Program-made: the position numbers and the translations under genes
From: Mariprofundaceae bacterium
GTDB lineage: Bacteria; Pseudomonadota; Zetaproteobacteria; Mariprofundales; Mariprofundaceae
DNA: 32,739 bases
Direction: 5' to 3'
Assembly: GCA_030950985.1 (NCBI GenBank)
Contig: JAUZQM010000077.1
Coordinates: forward strand, 1 to 32,739
The notes under the pieces: model-generated
What the model was told of the DNA's origin: nothing
What the model saw: the letters and a program-made list of their open reading frames with translations, nothing else
The model's database searches: none
Shown here: piece by piece, positions 9,250 to 28,425 of the stretch
Position numbering within the stretch: the first letter of the stretch is position 1
Layout: each line of letters opens with the position of its first letter

Positions 9250-10083
9250 TTAGGTAAGCGATATTTTAAATTCAATTGCTGATAGCAATATATCTTTAGA
9301 TTCGCGTTGTTTTATCGTTAAGTTTTCATCATTTTTAAGCACCGTATAACGCATGCCTTTAAGCAAAGGATTGGTCTTCGCTTCTGCTCTGCGAACCTCG
9401 TCAACACCATGATTGATAATTTTCATGATATGGAATTTATCAAACGTTATTTGTGCATTGGGAAGCTGTTCTCGAACGCCTTTAATAAAAGCAGGCGACA
9501 TATCACAACTCACATCTTTCACTTGCTCTCGACAACCTGATTTAGACTCTAAAACCTTAACAAAATCAACAGCTGTTTCATGACTTTTACCTTTGCTTAC
9601 ATGCATTGTAGAACGCTCTTTTAGGTCAACAAACAAGGTGATATAATCGTGTCCTTTAGCAATCGATGTCTCATCCATACCAATGCTATCCACACGACTT
9701 AAATCTTCATGAAGTTTGGCTGAATCAATATAAACATCCAAAATACGCCAAATTAAATAATCTGAAACACCAACTAATTGACTAACATTATGCACTGGCA
9801 TTGCCTTACAAAGTTGCATTAATAATGCCTCAAAGAGCAATGTAAATCCTGATACTTTTCCACTCCAAGGTGGCGAAACCATACGCACTTTTCCATCGCT
9901 ACGTTTAACCCGTGGAACCCGTGCAGTGAGATAACATTCATGTTCAAAAAAGTTCAAATGACGCCACTCTTTTCTGATACTGTCATAAGCTTTGTAAGCG
10001 CACCCATCAGAATCGTCACTACCATCTGTAAAAGTTGACCCTGCTTCAAAGTCAACATCAATACGAAGGCATTTTTTCGACAC
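9250..10083 (-). CDS. ISL3-family transposase, C-terminally truncated
   Basis: DDE transposase of an ISL3 element. Family stretches are clear: EWRHLNFFEHECYL, TARVPRVKR, SGFTLLFEALLMQL, IGMDETSIAKGHDYITLF (first catalytic Asp), VSCDMSPAFIKGV (second Asp) and ITFDKFHIMKIIN. The product ends at residue 277, shortly after KNDENLTIKQRE. This loses the ~130 C-terminal residues that carry the third catalytic residue (Glu), so it should be inactive. The start is GTG at 10083. The N-terminal region that holds a Cys-rich zinc finger in many family members has only one Cys here (FTDGSDDSDGC). The upstream promoter looks intact. Confidence 0.88.
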   Translation of the reverse strand: MSKKCLRIDVDFEAGSTFTDGSDDSDGCAYKAYDSIRKEWRHLNFFEHECYLTARVPRVKRSDGKVRMVSPPWSGKVSGFTLLFEALLMQLCKAMPVHNVSQLVGVSDYLIWRILDVYIDSAKLHEDLSRVDSIGMDETSIAKGHDYITLFVDLKERSTMHVSKGKSHETAVDFVKVLESKSGCREQVKDVSCDMSPAFIKGVREQLPNAQITFDKFHIMKIINHGVDEVRRAEAKTNPLLKGMRYTVLKNDENLTIKQRESKDILLSAIEFKISLT

Positions 10084-11559: not shown

Positions 11560-12221
11560 CCGTATTGTTCTCCTTCTAAAAGAGGGACAAAGGAGCAGTG
11601 ATCAAAATAAGTTTCTTCAATACCCGTTGATTTTTTTTCTCGGCGTACAAGGCAATGTTTCCCTTCTTCTCCTTCGGGCATCAATAACATGCCGCCTTCA
11701 GAGAGTTGTTGCAGCCAAATATCGGATGCAAAGCCGCCAGCAGTGACGATAATAGCATCAAAAGGAGCTTGTTCAGCCCAACCTAAACGGCCATCAGCAC
11801 ATTTAAGCGTAACATTTTGAATGTTTGATTTTAAAAGGTTCTGGTGCGCCTTTTGATGTAAAACTTTGATGCGCTCAATGCTATATACATGTTGACATAA
11901 GCAAGAAAGTATCGCTGTTTGATAACCACAACCCGTGCCAATTTCTAAGACGCGTTCATGCCCTTGTAAATTGAGTAGTTCTGTCATCCGTGCAACCATA
12001 AAAGGTTGTGAAATAGTCTGTTTTGCACCGATAGGTAAGGCAGAATTTTGATAAGCACGTGCAATCAAGGGTTGATCTACAAAAAGATGGCGATGAATAT
12101 GGTACATCGCATCTAAAACATGTTGACTTTGAATACCAGCGGGTATCAGTTGATTTTCAATCATACGGCGACGAGGCAGTTCAAATGATAGTGATAATAG
12201 TGATGATAGTGGTTTATGCAT
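11556..12221 (-). CDS. pcm: Protein-L-isoaspartate O-methyltransferase
   Basis: Repairs damaged proteins by SAM-dependent methylation of isoaspartyl residues. It is 221 residues, the usual length for bacterial PIMT. It shows the family's Ser-containing QTISQPFMVARM (Ser 71), the SAM-binding motif I VLEIGTGCGYQTA (from residue 91), VYSIERI and GWAEQAPFDAIIVTAG. The gene lies just behind tRNA-Pro and overlaps yqaA by 4 bases. The order pcm-yqaA-nlpD resembles the gamma/betaproteobacterial surE-pcm-nlpD region, although surE is not here. Confidence 0.95.
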   Translation of the reverse strand: MHKPLSSLLSLSFELPRRRMIENQLIPAGIQSQHVLDAMYHIHRHLFVDQPLIARAYQNSALPIGAKQTISQPFMVARMTELLNLQGHERVLEIGTGCGYQTAILSCLCQHVYSIERIKVLHQKAHQNLLKSNIQNVTLKCADGRLGWAEQAPFDAIIVTAGGFASDIWLQQLSEGGMLLMPEGEEGKHCLVRREKKSTGIEETYFDHCSFVPLLEGEQYG

Positions 12222-12277
12222 ACTGATGAATCCGAAAAAAATCTAAAAACATAAGTATAATCAAGTCATCCAATGAT

Positions 12278-12354
12278 TGGTCGGGACGGCAGGATTTGAA
12301 CCTGCGACCCCCACACCCCCAGTGTGGTGCGCTACCAAGCTGCGCTACGCCCCG
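12278..12354 (-). tRNA. tRNA-Pro (anticodon GGG)
   Basis: The 77-nucleotide cloverleaf is complete with an encoded CCA end. Acceptor CGGGGCG pairs with CGTCCCG (one G-T), and the D arm is GCGCAGCTTGGTAGCGC. The anticodon stem CCACA/TGTGG encloses the 7-base loop CTGGGGG, giving anticodon GGG, which reads CCC and CCU. The T arm is GCAGG-TTCAAAT-CCTGC. It lies between ihfA and pcm on the same strand, so it may be processed from the operon transcript. ihfA followed by tRNA-Pro is also seen in other proteobacteria. Confidence 0.97.
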
Positions 12355-12418
12355 TTGATTCAAGTAAGACAAACGGCAAGCTAATTGCTGAATTCTTAGA
12401 CGCAATAAGATTTTAATA

Positions 12419-12703
12419 TTATTCATCGTTGTCAAGCAAGGCTTGTTTGAAGATTTGGCTCGGACGAAATATTACGACACGGCGAGCACTAATTTCAGCG
12501 GCTTCTCCCGTATTTAGGTTACGACCTACACGCGCTTCTTTTTCACGCACCAGAAAATGTCCAAAACCAGATATTTGAACGTTTTCACCTGTATTTAGTG
12601 TGTCCGATATTTTATTAAGAACGCAATCAATAAGGAACATAGATGTTTGTTTATTCAGTTCTACGGTTTGTTGAATGATATGAGCAATATCTACTTTGGT
12701 CAT
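12419..12703 (-). CDS. ihfA: Integration host factor subunit alpha (HU/IHF family)
   Basis: Small nucleoid protein that bends DNA sharply; IHF normally works as an alpha-beta heterodimer. It is 94 residues with NVQISGFGHFLVREKEARVGRN and ARRVVIFRPSQIFKQ, closer to IhfA than to HU by my reading. Unusually, the tip of the beta-ribbon arm reads GRNLNTGE. Position 63 is Leu (codon CTA), where IHF and HU almost always have the Pro that wedges into the DNA. It overlaps the end of lolD by 4 bases and precedes tRNA-Pro. Subunit assignment (alpha, beta or HU-like) is less sure than the family. Confidence 0.85.
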   Translation of the reverse strand: MTKVDIAHIIQQTVELNKQTSMFLIDCVLNKISDTLNTGENVQISGFGHFLVREKEARVGRNLNTGEAAEISARRVVIFRPSQIFKQALLDNDE

Positions 12704-20030: not shown

Positions 20031-21158
20031 TTAATCCAACACTTTGGAAACAATTCCACCACCCAAGAGTTCATCATCGACATAAAAGGCAGCGACTTGC
20101 CCCGGTGCTGTTGGCTTTTGAGGGGTATCAAAGGTGATATTCACAACCTTGTCGGACACTTGAATTTGACAAGTGGCTGGCTGCATTTGATAGCGCACTT
20201 TAGCTGTGATGATTTCATCCTCACTTTTATCGCGTAACCAAGTCACTTCAGAGACTTCCACTTTACGAATCAAGGCATCTTCAGGGTGTGCGACCACAAC
20301 ACGGGCAGTGACTCCATCCAAGGATACGACATGCCAAGGACCATCGGATAAACCCAAACCTTTGCGTTGCCCTAATGTATAATGAGCAATCCCTTCATGT
20401 CCGCCCAAACGATTGCCCTCACGATCGACAATATCTCCTGCACGAAAGCCAGATGTTGCTCCTTCGCGTTTAAGAAAGGCAATGCGATCACCCGTAGGAA
20501 TAAAACAAATATCTTGGCTTTCATGTTTGAAAGCAGTCATTAAATCATAATGTTGAGCTAAAATACGTGTGCCATCTTTTTGTAAATGTCCGACAGGAAA
20601 TAAAATACGAGCGACTTGCTCACGCCCTGTTGTCGCAAGAAAATAACTTTGATCTTTTTTATTATCATTGCCTTTGTAAATATGTACGCCACTTGCATCG
20701 TCACGTCGTTGAACATAATGACCCGTCGCAACATATTCAGCTTCGAGCTGGTCGGTGGCATCTAACAGGCTGCCAAATTTCACAAAACGATTGCATCGTT
20801 CACACGGGTTGGGAGTCCGCCCTGTTTCATAATCTTCAATAAACGGTTCAATCACATCGCGGCGGAAGTTGTCACGCATATCCATATTGTAAAAAGGAAT
20901 GCCGATTTGATCGCATACTCGGCGTGCATCATAAGCATCATCCAGAGAGCAACATGAGCCTTTCCCTGCGACATCTTCACGGCGGTATTCCCAAACATTG
21001 AGAAAAACACCGATGACATCCGCGCCTGCTTCTTTAAGTAATGCCGCCATGACTGAGGAATCAACACCACCACTCATCGCAGCAATGATACGCACACCCT
21101 TAAGATGAGATAAATCAGGTTTTAATGATTCGATATATTCTTTAGAAAAATTAGACAT
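20031..21158 (-). CDS. mnmA: tRNA-specific 2-thiouridylase MnmA
   Basis: Puts sulfur on uridine 34 of tRNA-Lys, -Glu and -Gln. It is 375 residues. The PP-loop for ATP is SGGVDSS (29-35). The catalytic Cys pair is Cys 121 (TPNPCERCN) and Cys 220 (ESQDICFIP). The HYTLGQRKGLGL stretch and the C-terminal beta-barrel (QKPTAPGQVAAFY) are typical. The CCSLDDAYDARRVCDQIGIP segment belongs to one of the common MnmA subtypes. Its neighbours ndk and lysS lie downstream on the same strand, about 115 bases away. Confidence 0.97.
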   Translation of the reverse strand: MSNFSKEYIESLKPDLSHLKGVRIIAAMSGGVDSSVMAALLKEAGADVIGVFLNVWEYRREDVAGKGSCCSLDDAYDARRVCDQIGIPFYNMDMRDNFRRDVIEPFIEDYETGRTPNPCERCNRFVKFGSLLDATDQLEAEYVATGHYVQRRDDASGVHIYKGNDNKKDQSYFLATTGREQVARILFPVGHLQKDGTRILAQHYDLMTAFKHESQDICFIPTGDRIAFLKREGATSGFRAGDIVDREGNRLGGHEGIAHYTLGQRKGLGLSDGPWHVVSLDGVTARVVVAHPEDALIRKVEVSEVTWLRDKSEDEIITAKVRYQMQPATCQIQVSDKVVNITFDTPQKPTAPGQVAAFYVDDELLGGGIVSKVLD

Positions 21159-21195
21159 GCGGCGAAGTGTGTCAGGAAAAATCGTATATGCCTTC

Positions 21196-21403
21196 TAATT
21201 TATTGATGTTACGCATACCGTCATTCCCATGGTCTTTTCATCGGAAATATAGAAGAATATTCATATCACTCTGAAAGTATGGCTTTAGCCGCACCGAATG
21301 AAGTATCAGGGTGTGGCTAAAGCCGCACTTCCAAAAGGTGTTCAATGATCGACCAAGCTAGAATGACATTTTTTTCAGTAAAGTGCGTAACATCAGTAAT
21401 TTA
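21196..21403. repeat. MITE-like palindromic element with 20-bp terminal inverted repeats
   Basis: TAATTTATTGATGTTACGCA (21196-21215) and the complement of 21384-21403 match at 18 of 20 bases. Between them are GTCATTC and GAATGAC in inverted order, and GGCTTTAGCCGCAC / GGCTAAAGCCGCAC in direct order. The element has no ORF and fills nearly all of the 242-base gap between yaaA and mnmA. Its last three bases are the yaaA stop codon. Its right end resembles the repeat at 17893-17922. Confidence 0.6.
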
Positions 21404-22168
21404 TTGACGCGTAAACACCATCTGTTGTGATGTGGAGAGTTGTTCATTCCATTCATAGCCTTGAAGGTTAAAGGCTTGAAGCTCATCAGGTGTTTGTAAT
21501 TGATGTTGAATGATGAAACGGCTCATCAAGCCTCGCGCACGTTTGGCGTGAATACCAATGATTTTATAGTGACCATTTTTCCATTCTTTAAAGGTCGGTG
21601 TAATGATGCGAGCTTGTAAGGTTTTGGGGTGGACGGCTTTGAAATATTCTTGGGAAGCAAGGTTAATTAACAAATTATCACCTTGTTGCAGCAATGCTTT
21701 TTGGATGGATGCTGAAATCATATCCCCCCAAAATGTGTACAAATCCTTGCCGCGTGAATTTGCCAAGCGTGTTCCCATTTCAAGTCTATAAGCTTGCATC
21801 CAATCCCAAGGGCGAAGAAGTCCGTAAAGCCCTGATAAGATACGCAAGTGTTGTTGTGCAAAGGCAATATCCTTCGTTGATAACGATGCCACATCTAAAC
21901 TTTTGTAAACATCACCTTGGAATGCCCATAAGGCTTGTTTGGCATTGCTTGCATCAAAAGGTGTATGCCAATTTTGGAAGCGTTGGTGGTTTAAATCAGC
22001 CAGCGACATGGATAATTTCATCAATTCAGCGATGTCAAAAGCATCTTTATCATGTAGGACATCGATTAAAGCTTGGCTATGCTCTAAAAGTTCGGGTTCT
22101 TGGGCTGGAACATTGGAATCAAACGGTGTCATATCCAATTTTTTCGCAGGTGAAATGAGAATAAGCAT
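21401..22168 (-). CDS. yaaA: Peroxide stress protein YaaA (DUF328/UPF0246 family)
   Basis: DNA-binding protein that in E. coli lowers free iron and protects against hydrogen peroxide. It is 255 residues, normal length. The family features MLILISPAKKLDM, RILSGLYGLLRPWDWMQAYRLEMGT, LINLASQEYFKAV and HAKRARGLMSRF are clear. It starts 3 bases after the unknown Cys protein and so ends a three-gene unit headed by the oxidase-like membrane protein. Its last codons and stop lie at the border of an intergenic repeat. Confidence 0.95.
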   Translation of the reverse strand: MLILISPAKKLDMTPFDSNVPAQEPELLEHSQALIDVLHDKDAFDIAELMKLSMSLADLNHQRFQNWHTPFDASNAKQALWAFQGDVYKSLDVASLSTKDIAFAQQHLRILSGLYGLLRPWDWMQAYRLEMGTRLANSRGKDLYTFWGDMISASIQKALLQQGDNLLINLASQEYFKAVHPKTLQARIITPTFKEWKNGHYKIIGIHAKRARGLMSRFIIQHQLQTPDELQAFNLQGYEWNEQLSTSQQMVFTRQ

Positions 22169-22171
22169 GAT

Positions 22172-22705
22172 TTACGCGCTTTTTTGTTGGCGACGCTGAA
22201 GTTTCTTTTCGAGCTTCTTACTGCTAACCCAGTGTCGTAAAATCATCAGCCGTTTACCACCCCGTTTATCTTCACATTCAGGGCAAGTAAGGTAGCTAAG
22301 GAAAAGCTCTTTGGGCAACAAACCTTCATCCAATAGTTCAGATTGCATAGCACGAACTTCTTGCCGCATATTGGTAACATCACCATGAAAAAGACGGACA
22401 CGCAGATGAAAAGGTGTCGGAAGAATACGAATATGATGGGCAGGTGAATGGCTTTCTTGCAGTGGGCAAAGAAGTTGACCACGAAATGCGCCTGTACGTG
22501 TTAAATTAAAGCCTGGCCATGCTTCGTGTAATTCTAAATCTTCAATATTCGTTTTTTGTTTGAATAAATAGTTTTCATAACCAACTGGCATGTGCATAAA
22601 CATGGGAATACCAAGATCATGAACCAATTGACCACCCAAATCAATATCGCCACTACGCCAATCTGGATAGGAAGAAGGACAGCCGCAAGGTAAACGTTCA
22701 CTCAT
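22172..22705 (-). CDS. Uncharacterised conserved-looking Cys-containing protein
   Basis: I cannot assign a known family. It is a soluble 177-residue protein. It has an N-terminal CGC motif (Cys 7, Cys 9), GGQLVHDLGIPMFMHMP (His 29, His 38), Cys 80, HH at 90-91, a TCPEC motif (Cys 141, Cys 144) and a very basic helical tail (SSKKLEKKLQRRQQK). The Cys pairs and His residues could bind a metal. ATG 22705 overlaps the TGA of the upstream oxidase-like gene (ATGA); an in-frame ATG at 22762 would reach further into that gene and is rejected. Tight coupling to a haem-protein homologue and to yaaA suggests a shared job in redox or metal handling, which is inference. Confidence 0.8.
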   Translation of the reverse strand: MSERLPCGCPSSYPDWRSGDIDLGGQLVHDLGIPMFMHMPVGYENYLFKQKTNIEDLELHEAWPGFNLTRTGAFRGQLLCPLQESHSPAHHIRILPTPFHLRVRLFHGDVTNMRQEVRAMQSELLDEGLLPKELFLSYLTCPECEDKRGGKRLMILRHWVSSKKLEKKLQRRQQKSA

Positions 22706-23238
22706 GATTTTTTCTTGTACAGCCCTTTTATGGACAGTAAAACATTGGCGAGATAGACCCAAAAACCAATGGCAAGACCTGTGGCGGCAATGGAAATAAC
22801 AGGTCCATAAAAACGATGAATAGCAGGAATATCTTCAGGGTGAGTTAACCAAAGTCTGCCTTCCCAAATACCAAAAATCATCAGCGATACATAAAAACAT
22901 GAGACCCCAATAGCCGTCCACCAAAAAGAATGTTCCGCCATACGTTTGGAATATAAAGGGCGACCCGTAATTTTAGGTAATAAATAATAAGTCACTGCCA
23001 TGCCAAGGATGGTAACGCCGCCGACAAGATTGATATGGGCATGAGCAAGCGGATCAATCATATGCCCCGGTCCACCATAGGGGCTACCAATGGAGTCCAG
23101 CCAAGCACGAATGCTGGGAATCACTTGTAGCAAGCCGTGGACAGTGCCAACAAAAAAGGAAATCACAGATGTAATTAAAAATTTAGCGAGATAACGGTTT
23201 TCATCAATTGAATCGGATGTGGGAGGTGTTAAAGACAT
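22702..23238 (-). CDS. Stand-alone short haem-copper oxidase subunit I-like protein
   Basis: Inner-membrane protein of 178 residues with four hydrophobic segments (about 17-40, 66-88, 103-125 and 143-170). It resembles the first helices of CcoN/NorB-type subunit I. TVHGLLQVIP matches the end of helix I. PLAHAHINLVGG places His 68 where the low-spin haem ligand of helix II lies, followed by the typical YYLLPKITGRPLYS loop. The later helices with the CuB and high-spin haem ligands are missing. It cannot be an oxidase by itself but could bind a b-type haem. Such short homologues exist in other bacteria without a defined function. It heads a unit with the Cys protein and yaaA. Confidence 0.75.
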   Translation of the reverse strand: MSLTPPTSDSIDENRYLAKFLITSVISFFVGTVHGLLQVIPSIRAWLDSIGSPYGGPGHMIDPLAHAHINLVGGVTILGMAVTYYLLPKITGRPLYSKRMAEHSFWWTAIGVSCFYVSLMIFGIWEGRLWLTHPEDIPAIHRFYGPVISIAATGLAIGFWVYLANVLLSIKGLYKKKS

Positions 23239-23418
23239 GCGCGAAGCGTATCGTTAATGGCATCAAAAAAGAAGATGTGTCCTGCTGTTTTCCAATCTGA
23301 GTGCATATTAATCTCACAGCCAAGTCGCATTGGCATGAATAATCAGCTAAAATTATGAAGTGGAGAAAGAACGGATACTCGTTATGCTTGCCGCATTCCA
23401 AATACGAGGTATTCGAAC

Positions 23419-23697
23419 ATGGATATTGATGTTCAAAAGGTCGCAATGCTAGCTCGCATTCGTTTGACCGATGAAGAAGCTACAGAACTTAGTCCCCAAC
23501 TTTCAAGCATTCTTGCGTATGTCGATCAGTTAGCCGCTGTCGATACAGAAGGTGTGACACCAACTGCACATCCGCATGATGCGAGTATGCCTTTGCGTGC
23601 CAATGTGGTGACCAATGGCAACCGTCGTGATGCTTTACAAGCGGTCGCTCCTAAACTTGAATCGGGACTGTATGTTGTTCCCAAGGTGATTGAATAA
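23419..23697 (+). CDS. gatC: Asp-tRNA(Asn)/Glu-tRNA(Gln) amidotransferase subunit C
   Basis: Small subunit that holds GatA and GatB together in the transamidation pathway making Gln-tRNA(Gln) or Asn-tRNA(Asn). It is 92 residues with the family pattern VQKVAMLARIRLTDEEATEL, ILAYVDQLAAVDT and ASMPLRAN. The GAGG ribosome binding site lies in the loop of a small inverted repeat (AATAC-GAG-GTATT, 23401-23413). The stop overlaps gatA's ATG (TAATG). Confidence 0.95.
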   Translation: MDIDVQKVAMLARIRLTDEEATELSPQLSSILAYVDQLAAVDTEGVTPTAHPHDASMPLRANVVTNGNRRDALQAVAPKLESGLYVVPKVIE

Positions 23698-25166
23698 TGC
23701 CCTTTTCTTCCTTATCAGAAATTAAAACACGTTTAGATAACGGTGAAACGACCGCTGTTGAAGTTGCACAGCTTTATTTGGATCGTATCGCAGCGCATAA
23801 CGAGCAATTGAATGCTTTTGTGCATTTGGATGCGGAACATGTGCTTGGTCAGGCTCAAGCATCGGATGCTCATCGTGCTAAAGAAGGTGCGCGTGCGTTG
23901 GAAGGTTTGCCGATTGCGGTCAAAGATATTTTTTGTACGCAAGATGGACCAACGCAATGTTGCTCCAATATTTTGAAAGATTTTCATGCACCTTACGATG
24001 CGCATGTGATTACCAAACTCAAAGAAGCTGGCGCGGTTTTGGTCGGCAAAACCAATATGGATGAGTTCGCAATGGGTTCATCGACTGAAACATCAGCCTT
24101 TGGTGTGTGTCGTAATCCTTGGGATATGGATCGCATTCCCGGTGGTTCTTCAGGGGGTTCGGCTTCGGCAGTTGCGGCGGCGTTAACACCTGCTGCTTTA
24201 GGTACAGATACTGGCGGCTCAATTCGTCAACCTGCATCACTCACGGGAATTACTGGCATGAAACCGACGTATGGTCGTGTATCACGCCGTGGTATTATTG
24301 CGTTTGCATCCTCTTTGGATCAAGCCGGCCCAATGACGCGTACCGTCAAAGATGCCGCCATGATTACCGCTGCTATTGAAGGTCATGATGCCTTGGATTC
24401 GACCACGGTTGCAGATGCGCCTCAATTGGATTGGTTAAAAGCCTGTGAACAACGTGATATGAAAGGCATGAAAATTGGTGTACCAAAAGAATATTTTGTG
24501 GAAGGCATGGATGCAGAGGTTCGTGCTTCTGTGGAAGAAGCCTTGAAACAATGTGAAGCTTTGGGTGCTGAATTGGTCGATATTTCTTTACCCCATACCC
24601 ATCTTGCTGTGGCTGCTTATTATGTCATTGCGCCATCCGAAGCGTCTGCCAATTTATCGCGTTATGACAGTGTTCGATTTGGTCATCGTTGTGACAATCC
24701 TGAAGATTTATTGGATATGTACACACGCAGCCGTGATGAAGGTTTTGGCTCAGAAGTAAAACGTCGTATTTTAACAGGTACTTTTGCGCTTTCATCTGGT
24801 TATTACGATGCTTATTATTTAAAAGCACAACAAGTCCGTACCTTGATTCAACAAGATTTCACCCAAGCGTTTGAAAAAGTCGATGTGATTGCTACACCCA
24901 CAAGTCCCATCACTGCCTTTAAAATTGGTGAAAAAACAGATGATCCATTGACCATGTATTTATCAGATATTGATACCATCGCAGTCAATTTGGCTGGTTT
25001 ACCGGGATTGTCTCAACCGTGTGGTTTTGCACAAAATTTACCTGTTGGTTTACAATGGATTGCGCCCGCTTGGCGTGAAGATGTCTTGTTAGGTGCGGCA
25101 TCAGCTTATGAAGCGGCAACAGATTGGCACAAACACGTGCCTGCGGCATTTGGAGGTGAAGTATGA
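23697..25166 (+). CDS. gatA: Asp-tRNA(Asn)/Glu-tRNA(Gln) amidotransferase subunit A
   Basis: Glutaminase subunit that supplies ammonia for amidation of misacylated tRNA. It is 489 residues, normal length. The amidase-signature catalytic triad is visible: Lys 76 (LPIAVKDIF), the cis-Ser 151 (IPGGSSGGSASAVAA) and nucleophile Ser 175 (TDTGGSIRQPASLTG). GMKPTYGRVSRRGIIAFASS follows. It overlaps both gatC and gatB, a compact gatCAB operon. Confidence 0.98.
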   Translation: MPFSSLSEIKTRLDNGETTAVEVAQLYLDRIAAHNEQLNAFVHLDAEHVLGQAQASDAHRAKEGARALEGLPIAVKDIFCTQDGPTQCCSNILKDFHAPYDAHVITKLKEAGAVLVGKTNMDEFAMGSSTETSAFGVCRNPWDMDRIPGGSSGGSASAVAAALTPAALGTDTGGSIRQPASLTGITGMKPTYGRVSRRGIIAFASSLDQAGPMTRTVKDAAMITAAIEGHDALDSTTVADAPQLDWLKACEQRDMKGMKIGVPKEYFVEGMDAEVRASVEEALKQCEALGAELVDISLPHTHLAVAAYYVIAPSEASANLSRYDSVRFGHRCDNPEDLLDMYTRSRDEGFGSEVKRRILTGTFALSSGYYDAYYLKAQQVRTLIQQDFTQAFEKVDVIATPTSPITAFKIGEKTDDPLTMYLSDIDTIAVNLAGLPGLSQPCGFAQNLPVGLQWIAPAWREDVLLGAASAYEAATDWHKHVPAAFGGEV

Positions 25167-27449: not shown

Positions 27450-27501
27450 TTGATATTCACGCTTGGATTTAGGAAATATTTTTATAGTGTGCTGCTCACA
27501 C
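27450..27501 (+). promoter_or_regulatory. Candidate promoter/operator of the carbonic anhydrase gene
   Basis: TTGATA (27450-27455) is followed after 18 bases by AAATAT (27474-27479), an acceptable sigma-70 pair. Just downstream lies a perfect inverted repeat GTGTG-CTGCT-CACAC (27487-27501), which could be an operator or a small leader hairpin. Its half-sites differ from a CRP site in centre and spacing. Confidence 0.3.
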
Positions 27502-27543
27502 AACCTCTGTATATCTTTGAAAGAGGGAAAACGAGGTTTAACG

Positions 27544-28425
27544 ATGAAAAAAACATTTTTAACATTGACGATGAGTGCCTTATTGGCAGCACCATTCGCC
27601 GTGAATGCATTTGAACATAAAGAGGATGTTGCAAAGCATCAAGCAGTAGCAGGTTCAGTGATTACAGAGCAACGCGCAGCACTTGCAAAAAACACAGAGG
27701 GCAAGGGTTTTGGTCCTCAAGCACCACGAGATATTGATGCCGTTAAAGGTAACAATAGACGTGCTTCTAATGTAGCACCAGCTTCTAAAAAAATGAACCT
27801 TTGTAATATTCACTTCCATAGAAATGCGGAACATAAATCTAAAGATTTTTCTACTTATGCAGGCAATGGTAAAGGCTACGAAAATGGCTATAAATATTCA
27901 GGAAAATTAAGTCATCAAGAGCTTAAACCACTCAAACATGAAGTATGTTCTAAGCATCATGGTCATGATGCTTTGCAATCGGGTGATACCATTGAAGTTC
28001 ACTATGTGTACACCACAGCTCAAGTCAAACCTGGTCCAGGCTTAGAGTCTTGCTTCAATAAGGGTGTCATCAACAACCCTCAACTTCGTGTTGAAACACA
28101 AGTTTATGTGATTGTGAATGATAAACACGCGTTGGATTTTAAAGATTTAACGCAAGTTGATAAAAATAAATCTGGATTATATCAGGCAGTAGGCATTCCG
28201 AATAACACAGGTAAGGCTGTTCAATATGAAGGCTCTACAACGGGTCCTAGTTATCATAAAATAGGTTCGCCTTACCATGTCTCTTGGAGTGTGCGCCCTC
28301 AGGTTGCAAAGGTAAATATCAAAACTGTTGGAAAATGGTGTGAAGGGAATATCTTCGATGAAAATCATGGTCATGGTGTAAGAAACTTGATTAAAAACCC
28401 TGATTTATTGTCACATATCAATTAA
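27544..28425 (+). CDS. Delta-class carbonic anhydrase, secreted
   Basis: Converts CO2 and bicarbonate outside the cytoplasm. It is 293 residues from ATG 27544, which is preceded by ACGAGG and begins a clear signal peptide (MKKTFLTLTMSALLAAPFAVNA, cleavage expected after Ala 22); an in-frame ATG at 27463 would block that signal. The delta-class signature CNIHFHRNAEHKS holds His 90, His 92, Glu 96 and His 97; His 153 in DTIEVHYVY is the likely third zinc ligand. Cys 87, 135, 170 and 266 could form two disulfides, fitting the periplasm. A His-rich KHHGHD stretch (138-142) and HGHG near the end are notable. Delta enzymes were first known from diatoms; bacterial members are annotated. The gene is monocistronic with its own terminator. 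Confidence 0.85.
   Translation: MKKTFLTLTMSALLAAPFAVNAFEHKEDVAKHQAVAGSVITEQRAALAKNTEGKGFGPQAPRDIDAVKGNNRRASNVAPASKKMNLCNIHFHRNAEHKSKDFSTYAGNGKGYENGYKYSGKLSHQELKPLKHEVCSKHHGHDALQSGDTIEVHYVYTTAQVKPGPGLESCFNKGVINNPQLRVETQVYVIVNDKHALDFKDLTQVDKNKSGLYQAVGIPNNTGKAVQYEGSTTGPSYHKIGSPYHVSWSVRPQVAKVNIKTVGKWCEGNIFDENHGHGVRNLIKNPDLLSHIN

Follow-up and report, generated by a model that had tools for sequence, protein, structure and literature searches.

What does a membrane protein that resembles part of an oxidase subunit do beside a cysteine-containing protein and a gene for YaaA? The question is raised by a 32,739-nucleotide stretch of DNA from a Mariprofundaceae bacterium (NCBI GenBank assembly GCA_030950985.1, contig JAUZQM010000077.1, forward strand; hereafter referred to as the window), which is contig C115 of a 1.75-Mb genome that is 89% complete. 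Three tightly spaced genes lie on its minus strand, and we refer to the products of the first two as MEM and CYS:

22702-23238, minus strand: MEM, a membrane protein of 178 amino acids
22172-22705, minus strand: CYS, a soluble protein of 177 amino acids counted from ATG
21401-22168, minus strand: yaaA, 255 amino acids (PF03883)
22702-22705, minus strand: ATGA, the 4-base overlap of the MEM stop and the CYS start, with possible translational coupling

An original prediction, made from these letters alone, had described the three open reading frames (ORFs), the overlap and the 3-base gap between CYS and yaaA as we find them; the longest listed ORF of CYS begins further upstream, at TTG. It had proposed a small membrane haem sensor or electron-transfer module tied to peroxide/iron control. 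Two parts of that interpretation, a conserved two-gene unit and the retention of His 68 of MEM, stood up in the analysis described here, and two others, the assignment of a MEM motif to helix II and the tie to peroxide/iron control, did not. With moderate confidence, we regard MEM and CYS as, on balance, accessory proteins of a non-canonical cbb3-type oxidase that occurs among iron oxidisers and their relatives in the Zeta-, Beta- and Gammaproteobacteria.

MEM matched the COX1 family (PF00115) with 55.8 bits (cut-off, 34.8 bits; E 4.7e-15), and the match covered only positions 345-411 of the 436 in the profile. All of the 53 rows in our MEM alignment (A4; 49 of the rows are the window and 48 of the 80 loci described below) matched COX1 at E <= 0.01. 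By phmmer, MEM residues 59-143 were aligned with residues 337-423 of CcoN in 3mk7, and hhalign placed the MEM family on CcoN residues 336-461 of related clusters, with AHAH over AHAH. Weaker phmmer matches to the helix-II (5.2 bits) and helix-VI (11.5 bits) regions of CcoN may be attributed to an internal repeat, which oxidase subunit I presumably has; the helix numbers that we apply to the MEM matches are likewise those that we take to be the numbering of subunit I. The AlphaFold2 model of MEM, built from a 53-row alignment, consisted of four long helices (mean predicted local distance difference test [pLDDT] score 89, predicted template-modelling score 0.81; the other four models, 80-82). 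It was superposed on residues 299-464 of 3mk7 chain A with a Z score of 15.2 and a root-mean-square deviation (rmsd) of 2.3 over 155 aligned residues, and most of the oxidase structures listed aligned to it across the same C-terminal third; the best Foldseek E-value for the model was 4.4e-4. With helical bundles a Z score under ~13 can reflect a common arrangement, and the MEM values exceed that and agree with the sequence comparisons. Because sequence, profile and predicted fold all match helices IX-XII, we conclude that MEM is, as judged from its sequence and its model, the C-terminal third of the oxidase subunit I CcoN in the form of a separate protein.

The description of the first gene product as an oxidase-I-like protein with four helices and without CuB ligands is thus borne out by the PF00115 match, the model and the span of helices IX-XII. 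Spanning only these helices, MEM is without the CuB histidines (helices VI-VII) and without the helix II ligand of the low-spin haem. Its four long predicted helices differ from the twelve of oxidase subunit I, and it scored below the cut-off of the CcoN equivalog TIGR00780 (39.6 bits against 583.15). The motif HAHINLVGG had been read as helix II; we rejected this reading, as the profile, phmmer, fold and hhalign comparisons all give helix X. The candidate haem ligands of MEM are as follows:

23035-23043, minus strand: H66-A67-H68 of MEM, corresponding to the pair of histidines that ligate haem in helix X
23137-23139, minus strand: H34 of MEM, in the first helix, a candidate second axial ligand

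Conservation of these residues was counted from one best MEM match per locus in 81 loci, namely the window and the best 80 of 179 relatives from named genomes, the 80 having been found by two peptide patterns that correspond to MEM residues 27-34 and 57-64. H66 and H68, which lie outside the search patterns and were aligned by hhalign to H343 and H345 of CcoN, were kept in 81 of the 81 MEM rows; a distant homologue (L022) keeps only H68 of the two. They occupy the haem b3 and haem b ligand positions, presumably in that order. H34 was present in 80 of the 81 rows, and H59 and D62 in all 81, figures that are biased by selection since these three residues lie inside the search patterns. H34 is also kept in L022 and is absent from the MEM2 paralogues described below, and H59 was placed differently on CcoN by phmmer and by hhalign. 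Two rows were left out of each of the row sets A1 (L036 and L051, one stop each) and A2 (L011, one stop within the match; L021, split at a contig end).

We surveyed 398 genomes of the phylum, comprising 78 of the window's order and 320 others. At a threshold of E <= 1e-30, MEM was present in 44 of them (43 of the order plus one other, G029), and the genomes with CYS at E 2.5e-39 or better were these 44 and no others; three weaker CYS matches (E 1e-10 to 3e-16) occurred elsewhere. The two genes were adjacent on one strand in 41 of the 44 genomes, with 12-194 bases between the profile edges. As to the exceptions, a gene runs into the contig end in G106 and G028, and the two genes are on separate contigs in G029. 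MEM and CYS are therefore a real pair, and the unit is MEM-CYS, in agreement with the two-gene unit that had been predicted; its homologues are not rarely adjacent.

The pairing differed among lineages. Among loci with at least 600 bases downstream of MEM, CYS followed in 38 of 39 zetaproteobacterial, 17 of 20 gammaproteobacterial and none of 21 betaproteobacterial loci, counts that are partly circular: the beta and gamma labels came from record titles, and six records titled only Proteobacteria (L142, L147, L159, L168, L173 and L182) were labelled by the presence or absence of CYS itself. A later MEM tree agreed with the labels, the beta rows forming one starred clade (100/98) and the Zeta rows one side of a branch (93/95), with gamma needing two changes; the nearest MEM relatives of the window in the tree were Mariprofundaceae or Zetaproteobacteria bins. 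The lone zetaproteobacterial miss (L116) is a counting artefact, the CYS match lying within a long frame that starts before MEM, and of the three gamma genomes in which CYS does not adjoin MEM, two carry it at another place. A genome-wide search of the 21 beta genomes with MEM revealed no CYS in 20 and a weak match (E 1.6e-13) in one, while two positive controls were found.

In other genera, a set of genes for a non-canonical cbb3-type oxidase often lies near the pair, for instance at the following places:

L088:4465-16701, non-canonical cbb3 set
L119:11071-20062, non-canonical cbb3 set
L179:10515-20422, non-canonical cbb3 set

The set includes a CcoN of 468 amino acids with histidines at the places that we take to be expected for helices II, VI, VII and X, a FixO-type CcoO, and a CcoP-like protein (FixP_N match below the cut-off) that was without CXXCH in 26 of 26 copies. 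A mono-haem cytochrome c of the set had one CXXCH in 37 of 37 members. The set also contains a small protein with a FixS match below the cut-off, a protein with an FGE-sulfatase domain, a membrane protein of 870-880 amino acids with a spermine-synthase domain and, next to it, a polyferredoxin (Fer4_5/Fer4_18) that is presumably CcoG-like, as well as small proteins including a DHC-type cytochrome. When loci with at least 3 kb downstream of MEM were considered, at least two of four marker genes of the set lay within 6 kb and were convergent on MEM in 18 of the 32 Zeta loci, 9 of the 16 gamma loci and 18 of the 19 beta loci. Because the wider company of the pair is a cbb3-type oxidase gene set, its context points to respiration rather than to a peroxide sensor.

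A protein of ~130 amino acids with four hydrophobic segments (L119:9530-9913) and its homologues are encoded divergently from MEM in 28 of 40 Zeta loci; the homologue at L088:17966-18349 has a DUF420 match below the cut-off. This protein may belong to the same function as MEM.

We also followed MEM and the gene for the 870-880-residue protein (hereafter referred to as the 880-aa gene) across genomes. Among the 78 order genomes, 42 had both, one (G253) had MEM only, four had the 880-aa gene only and 31 had neither (Fisher 3e-16, for genomes that are related and not independent). In the distant G029, the MEM homologue (32% identity) and a homologue of the 880-aa gene are ~1.6 kb apart. As another possibility, MEM might have been a marker of the Cyc2 pathway. 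With a Cyc2 motif pattern taken from the part of PMC8406198 that describes it, we found the motif in 66 of the 78 order genomes, i.e., in 36 of 43 with MEM and 30 of 35 without, and rejected this possibility within the order. Because the 880-aa gene co-occurs with MEM and the Cyc2 motif is found irrespective of it, MEM follows the oxidase set, not Cyc2, within the order. Two order genomes in single contigs (G018 and G068; 2.3 and 2.5 Mb) have the Cyc2 motif and neither MEM nor the 880-aa gene. Strains CP-5 and CP-8 have an aa3 oxidase and no cbb3, according to the relevant section of PMC5513912.

The 41 non-Zeta carriers of MEM among the best 80 loci include Gallionella, Ferrovaceae, Nitrosomonadales, Chromatiaceae and a biocathode gammaproteobacterium. 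The Cyc2 motif was present in 20 of these 41 and in 14 of the 319 other non-order genomes, a comparison uncorrected for kinship. As 16 of 21 beta carriers and 4 of 20 gamma carriers (one of which, G400, looks spurious) have the motif, the association of Cyc2 with MEM outside the order is mainly a beta one and is weak for the gammas. A different Cyc2 pattern had a single match in the window's own genome, in a region with two long ORFs that resemble genes of DNA replication and repair. The porin family PF07396 had no match in three genomes, and an ORF scan of 193 sequences for Cyc2-like proteins returned none.

The second protein, CYS, narrowly passed the cut-off of PF20603 'Bact_hydrolase' (28.1 bits against 27), a family matched at E <= 0.01 by 33 of the 34 CYS copies that we had hand-picked for spread (A3). 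An NCBIfam search gave no family for it, and its profile found nothing significant among PDB sequences (best E 0.029), so that only the fold comparison is informative. The CYS model (pLDDT 92) showed a GyrI-like/SOUL fold over residues ~15-162. The structures that it matched included CTR107 (5kax; Z 13.0, 140 residues aligned, rmsd 2.9), EcmrR (6wl5; Z 12.9), Listeria hydrolases (5x5r and 5x5m; Z 11.6-12.2), SOUL (Z 11.5) and HEBP1 (7oon; Z 11.3). CYS thus has its fold in common with the GyrI-like and SOUL-HEBP proteins (Z 11-13), yet only ~7-15% sequence identity, and it differs from them in an invariant CxC plus CxxC. These are the CGC and CPEC motifs that had been pointed out in the second gene:

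22679-22687, minus strand: C7-G-C9 of CYS, first half of what is probably a metal site of four cysteines
22274-22285, minus strand: C141-P-E-C144 of CYS, the other half of that probable site

C7, C9, C141 and C144 were invariant in 55 of 55 CYS rows, which suggests that the four cysteines may form one metal site.

Our preferred reading of MEM and CYS as oxidase accessory proteins rests on homology, the fold match, gene pairing, co-occurrence and synteny, and from these we infer the haem binding, topology, partner and role that follow. By homology to CcoN, whose topology we take to be applicable here, MEM would lie in the cytoplasmic membrane with AHAH near the periplasmic face and both termini in the cytoplasm. 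The same homology suggests that haem b would be bound through H68 and/or H66, and a second axial ligand might come from H34 or from a partner protein. Because of the gene company in which MEM travels, the cbb3 oxidase is its likeliest partner; MEM would either become part of this enzyme, the genes of which often face it, or assist in its construction. In the Zeta and gamma lineages, CYS would assist MEM in the cytoplasm, concerned with ligand or haem handling by means of a GyrI/SOUL-type pocket and a metal site, and in the beta lineages MEM would work without CYS. As to the part played by MEM itself, we tentatively suggest a haem-b accessory subunit of the cbb3 oxidase, which we favour somewhat over a scaffold for haem insertion or assembly, itself a possible role of slightly lower probability.

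Several observations weigh against this reading. The oxidase set is not beside the pair in 14 of the 32 Zeta loci and 7 of the 16 gamma loci, and the window is one of the cases; in the window's genome the 880-aa gene is on contig C34 and CcoN on contig C124. Four order genomes (G001, G007, G016 and G190; 68, 79, 93 and 84% complete, respectively) have the 880-aa gene without MEM. Five genomes from outside the order have weaker homologues of it (E 1e-41 to 1e-46, 31-34% identity) and no MEM, and because of these the 880-aa gene is not exclusive to the cbb3 set. The tracking of MEM with the 880-aa gene may reflect few events of gain or loss. Finally, because a sequence search found no CYS in 20 of the 21 MEM-bearing beta genomes, MEM and CYS are, as far as such searches tell, not obligate partners.

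Some of the alternatives bear on a second four-helix CcoN-like protein, MEM2, that we encountered in genomes carrying MEM:

L098:11513-12025 and others: MEM2, with a DUF2871 match below the cut-off
L098:10917-13006 (contig C56 of G000): MEM2 cluster
L088:1465-3588: MEM2 cluster
L152:5590-7665: MEM2 cluster

MEM2 resembles MEM in its length, its H-x-H motif and its similarity to CcoN (residues 322-450); it differs in having only 28% identity to MEM, in forming a separate clade and in the absence of H34. Its gene stands between those for a cytochrome c and a thioredoxin-like protein. The cluster also has a small unassigned protein and occurs in several Zeta and beta carriers. MEM and MEM2 together suggest that thirds of CcoN have been used more than once.

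Among the alternatives, the one to which we give most weight, while holding it to be only a possibility, is that of a pure assembly module, in which MEM would be a temporary stand-in or scaffold for the C-terminal part of CcoN during insertion of haems b and b3, CYS would deliver or check haem in the cytoplasm, and neither would remain in the finished oxidase. The polyferredoxin and the small FixS-like protein (match below the cut-off) of the set resemble known maturation genes, the fold of CYS is common to the haem-binding HEBP1 and SOUL (Z 11.3 and 11.5), and MEM2 adjoins a thioredoxin-like protein as well as a cytochrome c. However, CYS fits drug-binding regulators and CTR107 slightly better than HEBP1, so that haem is not singled out, and the search of the 21 beta carriers revealed no CYS in 20. 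An unlikely alternative is that MEM represents a single-repeat oxidase fold, oligomerising, for example, into a trimer that would mimic the 12-helix barrel, with haems held between protomers by H-x-H, as an independent complex for electron transfer or gas binding. That a four-helix protein keeps both haem-ligand histidines of helix X is consistent with this, the faint matches to the helix-II and helix-VI regions fit the internal repeat, and a second such protein, MEM2, adjoins a cytochrome c; yet the best match of MEM is specific to the third repeat, and its tracking with the cbb3 set suggests the role of a partner. The related proposal that MEM, with itself or with MEM2, forms an oxidase-like barrel with H-x-H haems between protomers, which would transfer electrons as a complex alongside the cbb3 oxidase and distinct from it, is if anything slightly more improbable.

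The remaining alternative is the one with which this locus was introduced, a haem sensor or electron-transfer module in the membrane that would be linked, together with YaaA, to peroxide/iron control. The third gene is indeed yaaA, scoring 295.6 bits against PF03883 (cut-off, 29.6); it passed NF002542 (359.1 against 278) and fell just short of NF002541 (360.1 against 368). In the window the three genes follow one another closely, and a scan of 20900-23700 found no terminator-like site around them (2.5 expected by chance) and three promoter-like sites (6.8 expected), counts that support no firm conclusion. Against a functional tie, yaaA adjoins the pair in only 4 of the 16 genomes that have both (G000, G005, G006 and G008) and is on another contig in the other 12. 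Among the 81 loci, 8 of which end within 1.3 kb of MEM, it adjoins in 4 (the window, L103, L104 and L105), and these are partly the same organisms, L103, L104 and L105 being contigs of G005, G008 and G006 counted twice. The four loci make up one starred clade (97/99). The pair and the 880-aa gene of the oxidase set are separated by ~3-4 kb in the sister genome G004 and by ~10 kb in G010. Since the adjacency is limited to one clade and the pair is near an oxidase-set gene in G004 and G010, the yaaA neighbourhood looks derived, and we judge yaaA to be an accidental neighbour of a relocated pair, not a part of the unit. This neighbourhood survey, in which the company of the pair is the cbb3-type oxidase set, led us to reject the link to YaaA and peroxide, and we hold a module of that kind to be very unlikely.

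Among known proteins, MEM thus has in common with CcoN (3mk7 chain A; TIGR00780) the sequence and predicted fold of helices IX-XII and the H-x-H of helix X, and differs from it in having 4 helices instead of 12 and in the absence of the helix II ligand and the CuB ligands. If the single-repeat barrel were true, it would show how the three-fold subunit of 12 helices could be derived from a single unit of four. In any case, a free-standing third of oxidase subunit I offers a test case for subunit building and haem insertion. The cbb3 loci of iron oxidisers and of a biocathode bacterium, as far as they are covered in the consulted parts of PMC5371394, PMC7029218, PMC4725956 and PMC8788666, have cbb3-type oxidases with extra cytochromes in common with the loci described here. 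The first of these accounts (Eddie 2017; PMC5371394) describes, in the part concerned, synteny of the Cyc1 region between Tenderia and M. ferrooxydans, with a polyferredoxin and three hypothetical proteins in the syntenous regions; the passages at hand in McAllister 2020 (PMC7029218) distinguish proximal and distal cbb3 forms in Zetaproteobacteria, and those on Ferrovum JA12 (PMC4725956) report a cbb3 cluster of which no subunits other than I and II were identified. In the portions that we consulted of this literature on iron-oxidiser cbb3 loci and of PMC4643136, PMC8406198, PMC10734462, PMC3179512, PMC4886054 and PMC5513912, supplementary material being outside their scope, no description of MEM or CYS was found, nor did literature searches bring one up, and MEM is a conserved protein that is apparently undescribed. 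The route of electrons from Fe to oxygen in neutrophilic iron oxidisers is best worked out at the outer membrane (Cyc2), and in the portions consulted the oxidase side at the inner membrane is thinly described. MEM, with its haem-ligand histidines and its travelling with oxidase genes in three proteobacterial classes, gives work on that side a concrete target.

Elsewhere in the window, three further features were noted:

27463-28425: delta-type carbonic anhydrase (PF10563, E 1.9e-72)
9250-10083: ISL3-family transposase (PF01610, PF13542), which looks truncated, the DDE match ending at 139 of 240
12281-12354, minus strand: tRNA gene (RF00005), the sole Rfam match in the window, overlapping a 73-residue ORF at 12214-12435

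The delta-type carbonic anhydrase family is best known from marine algae.

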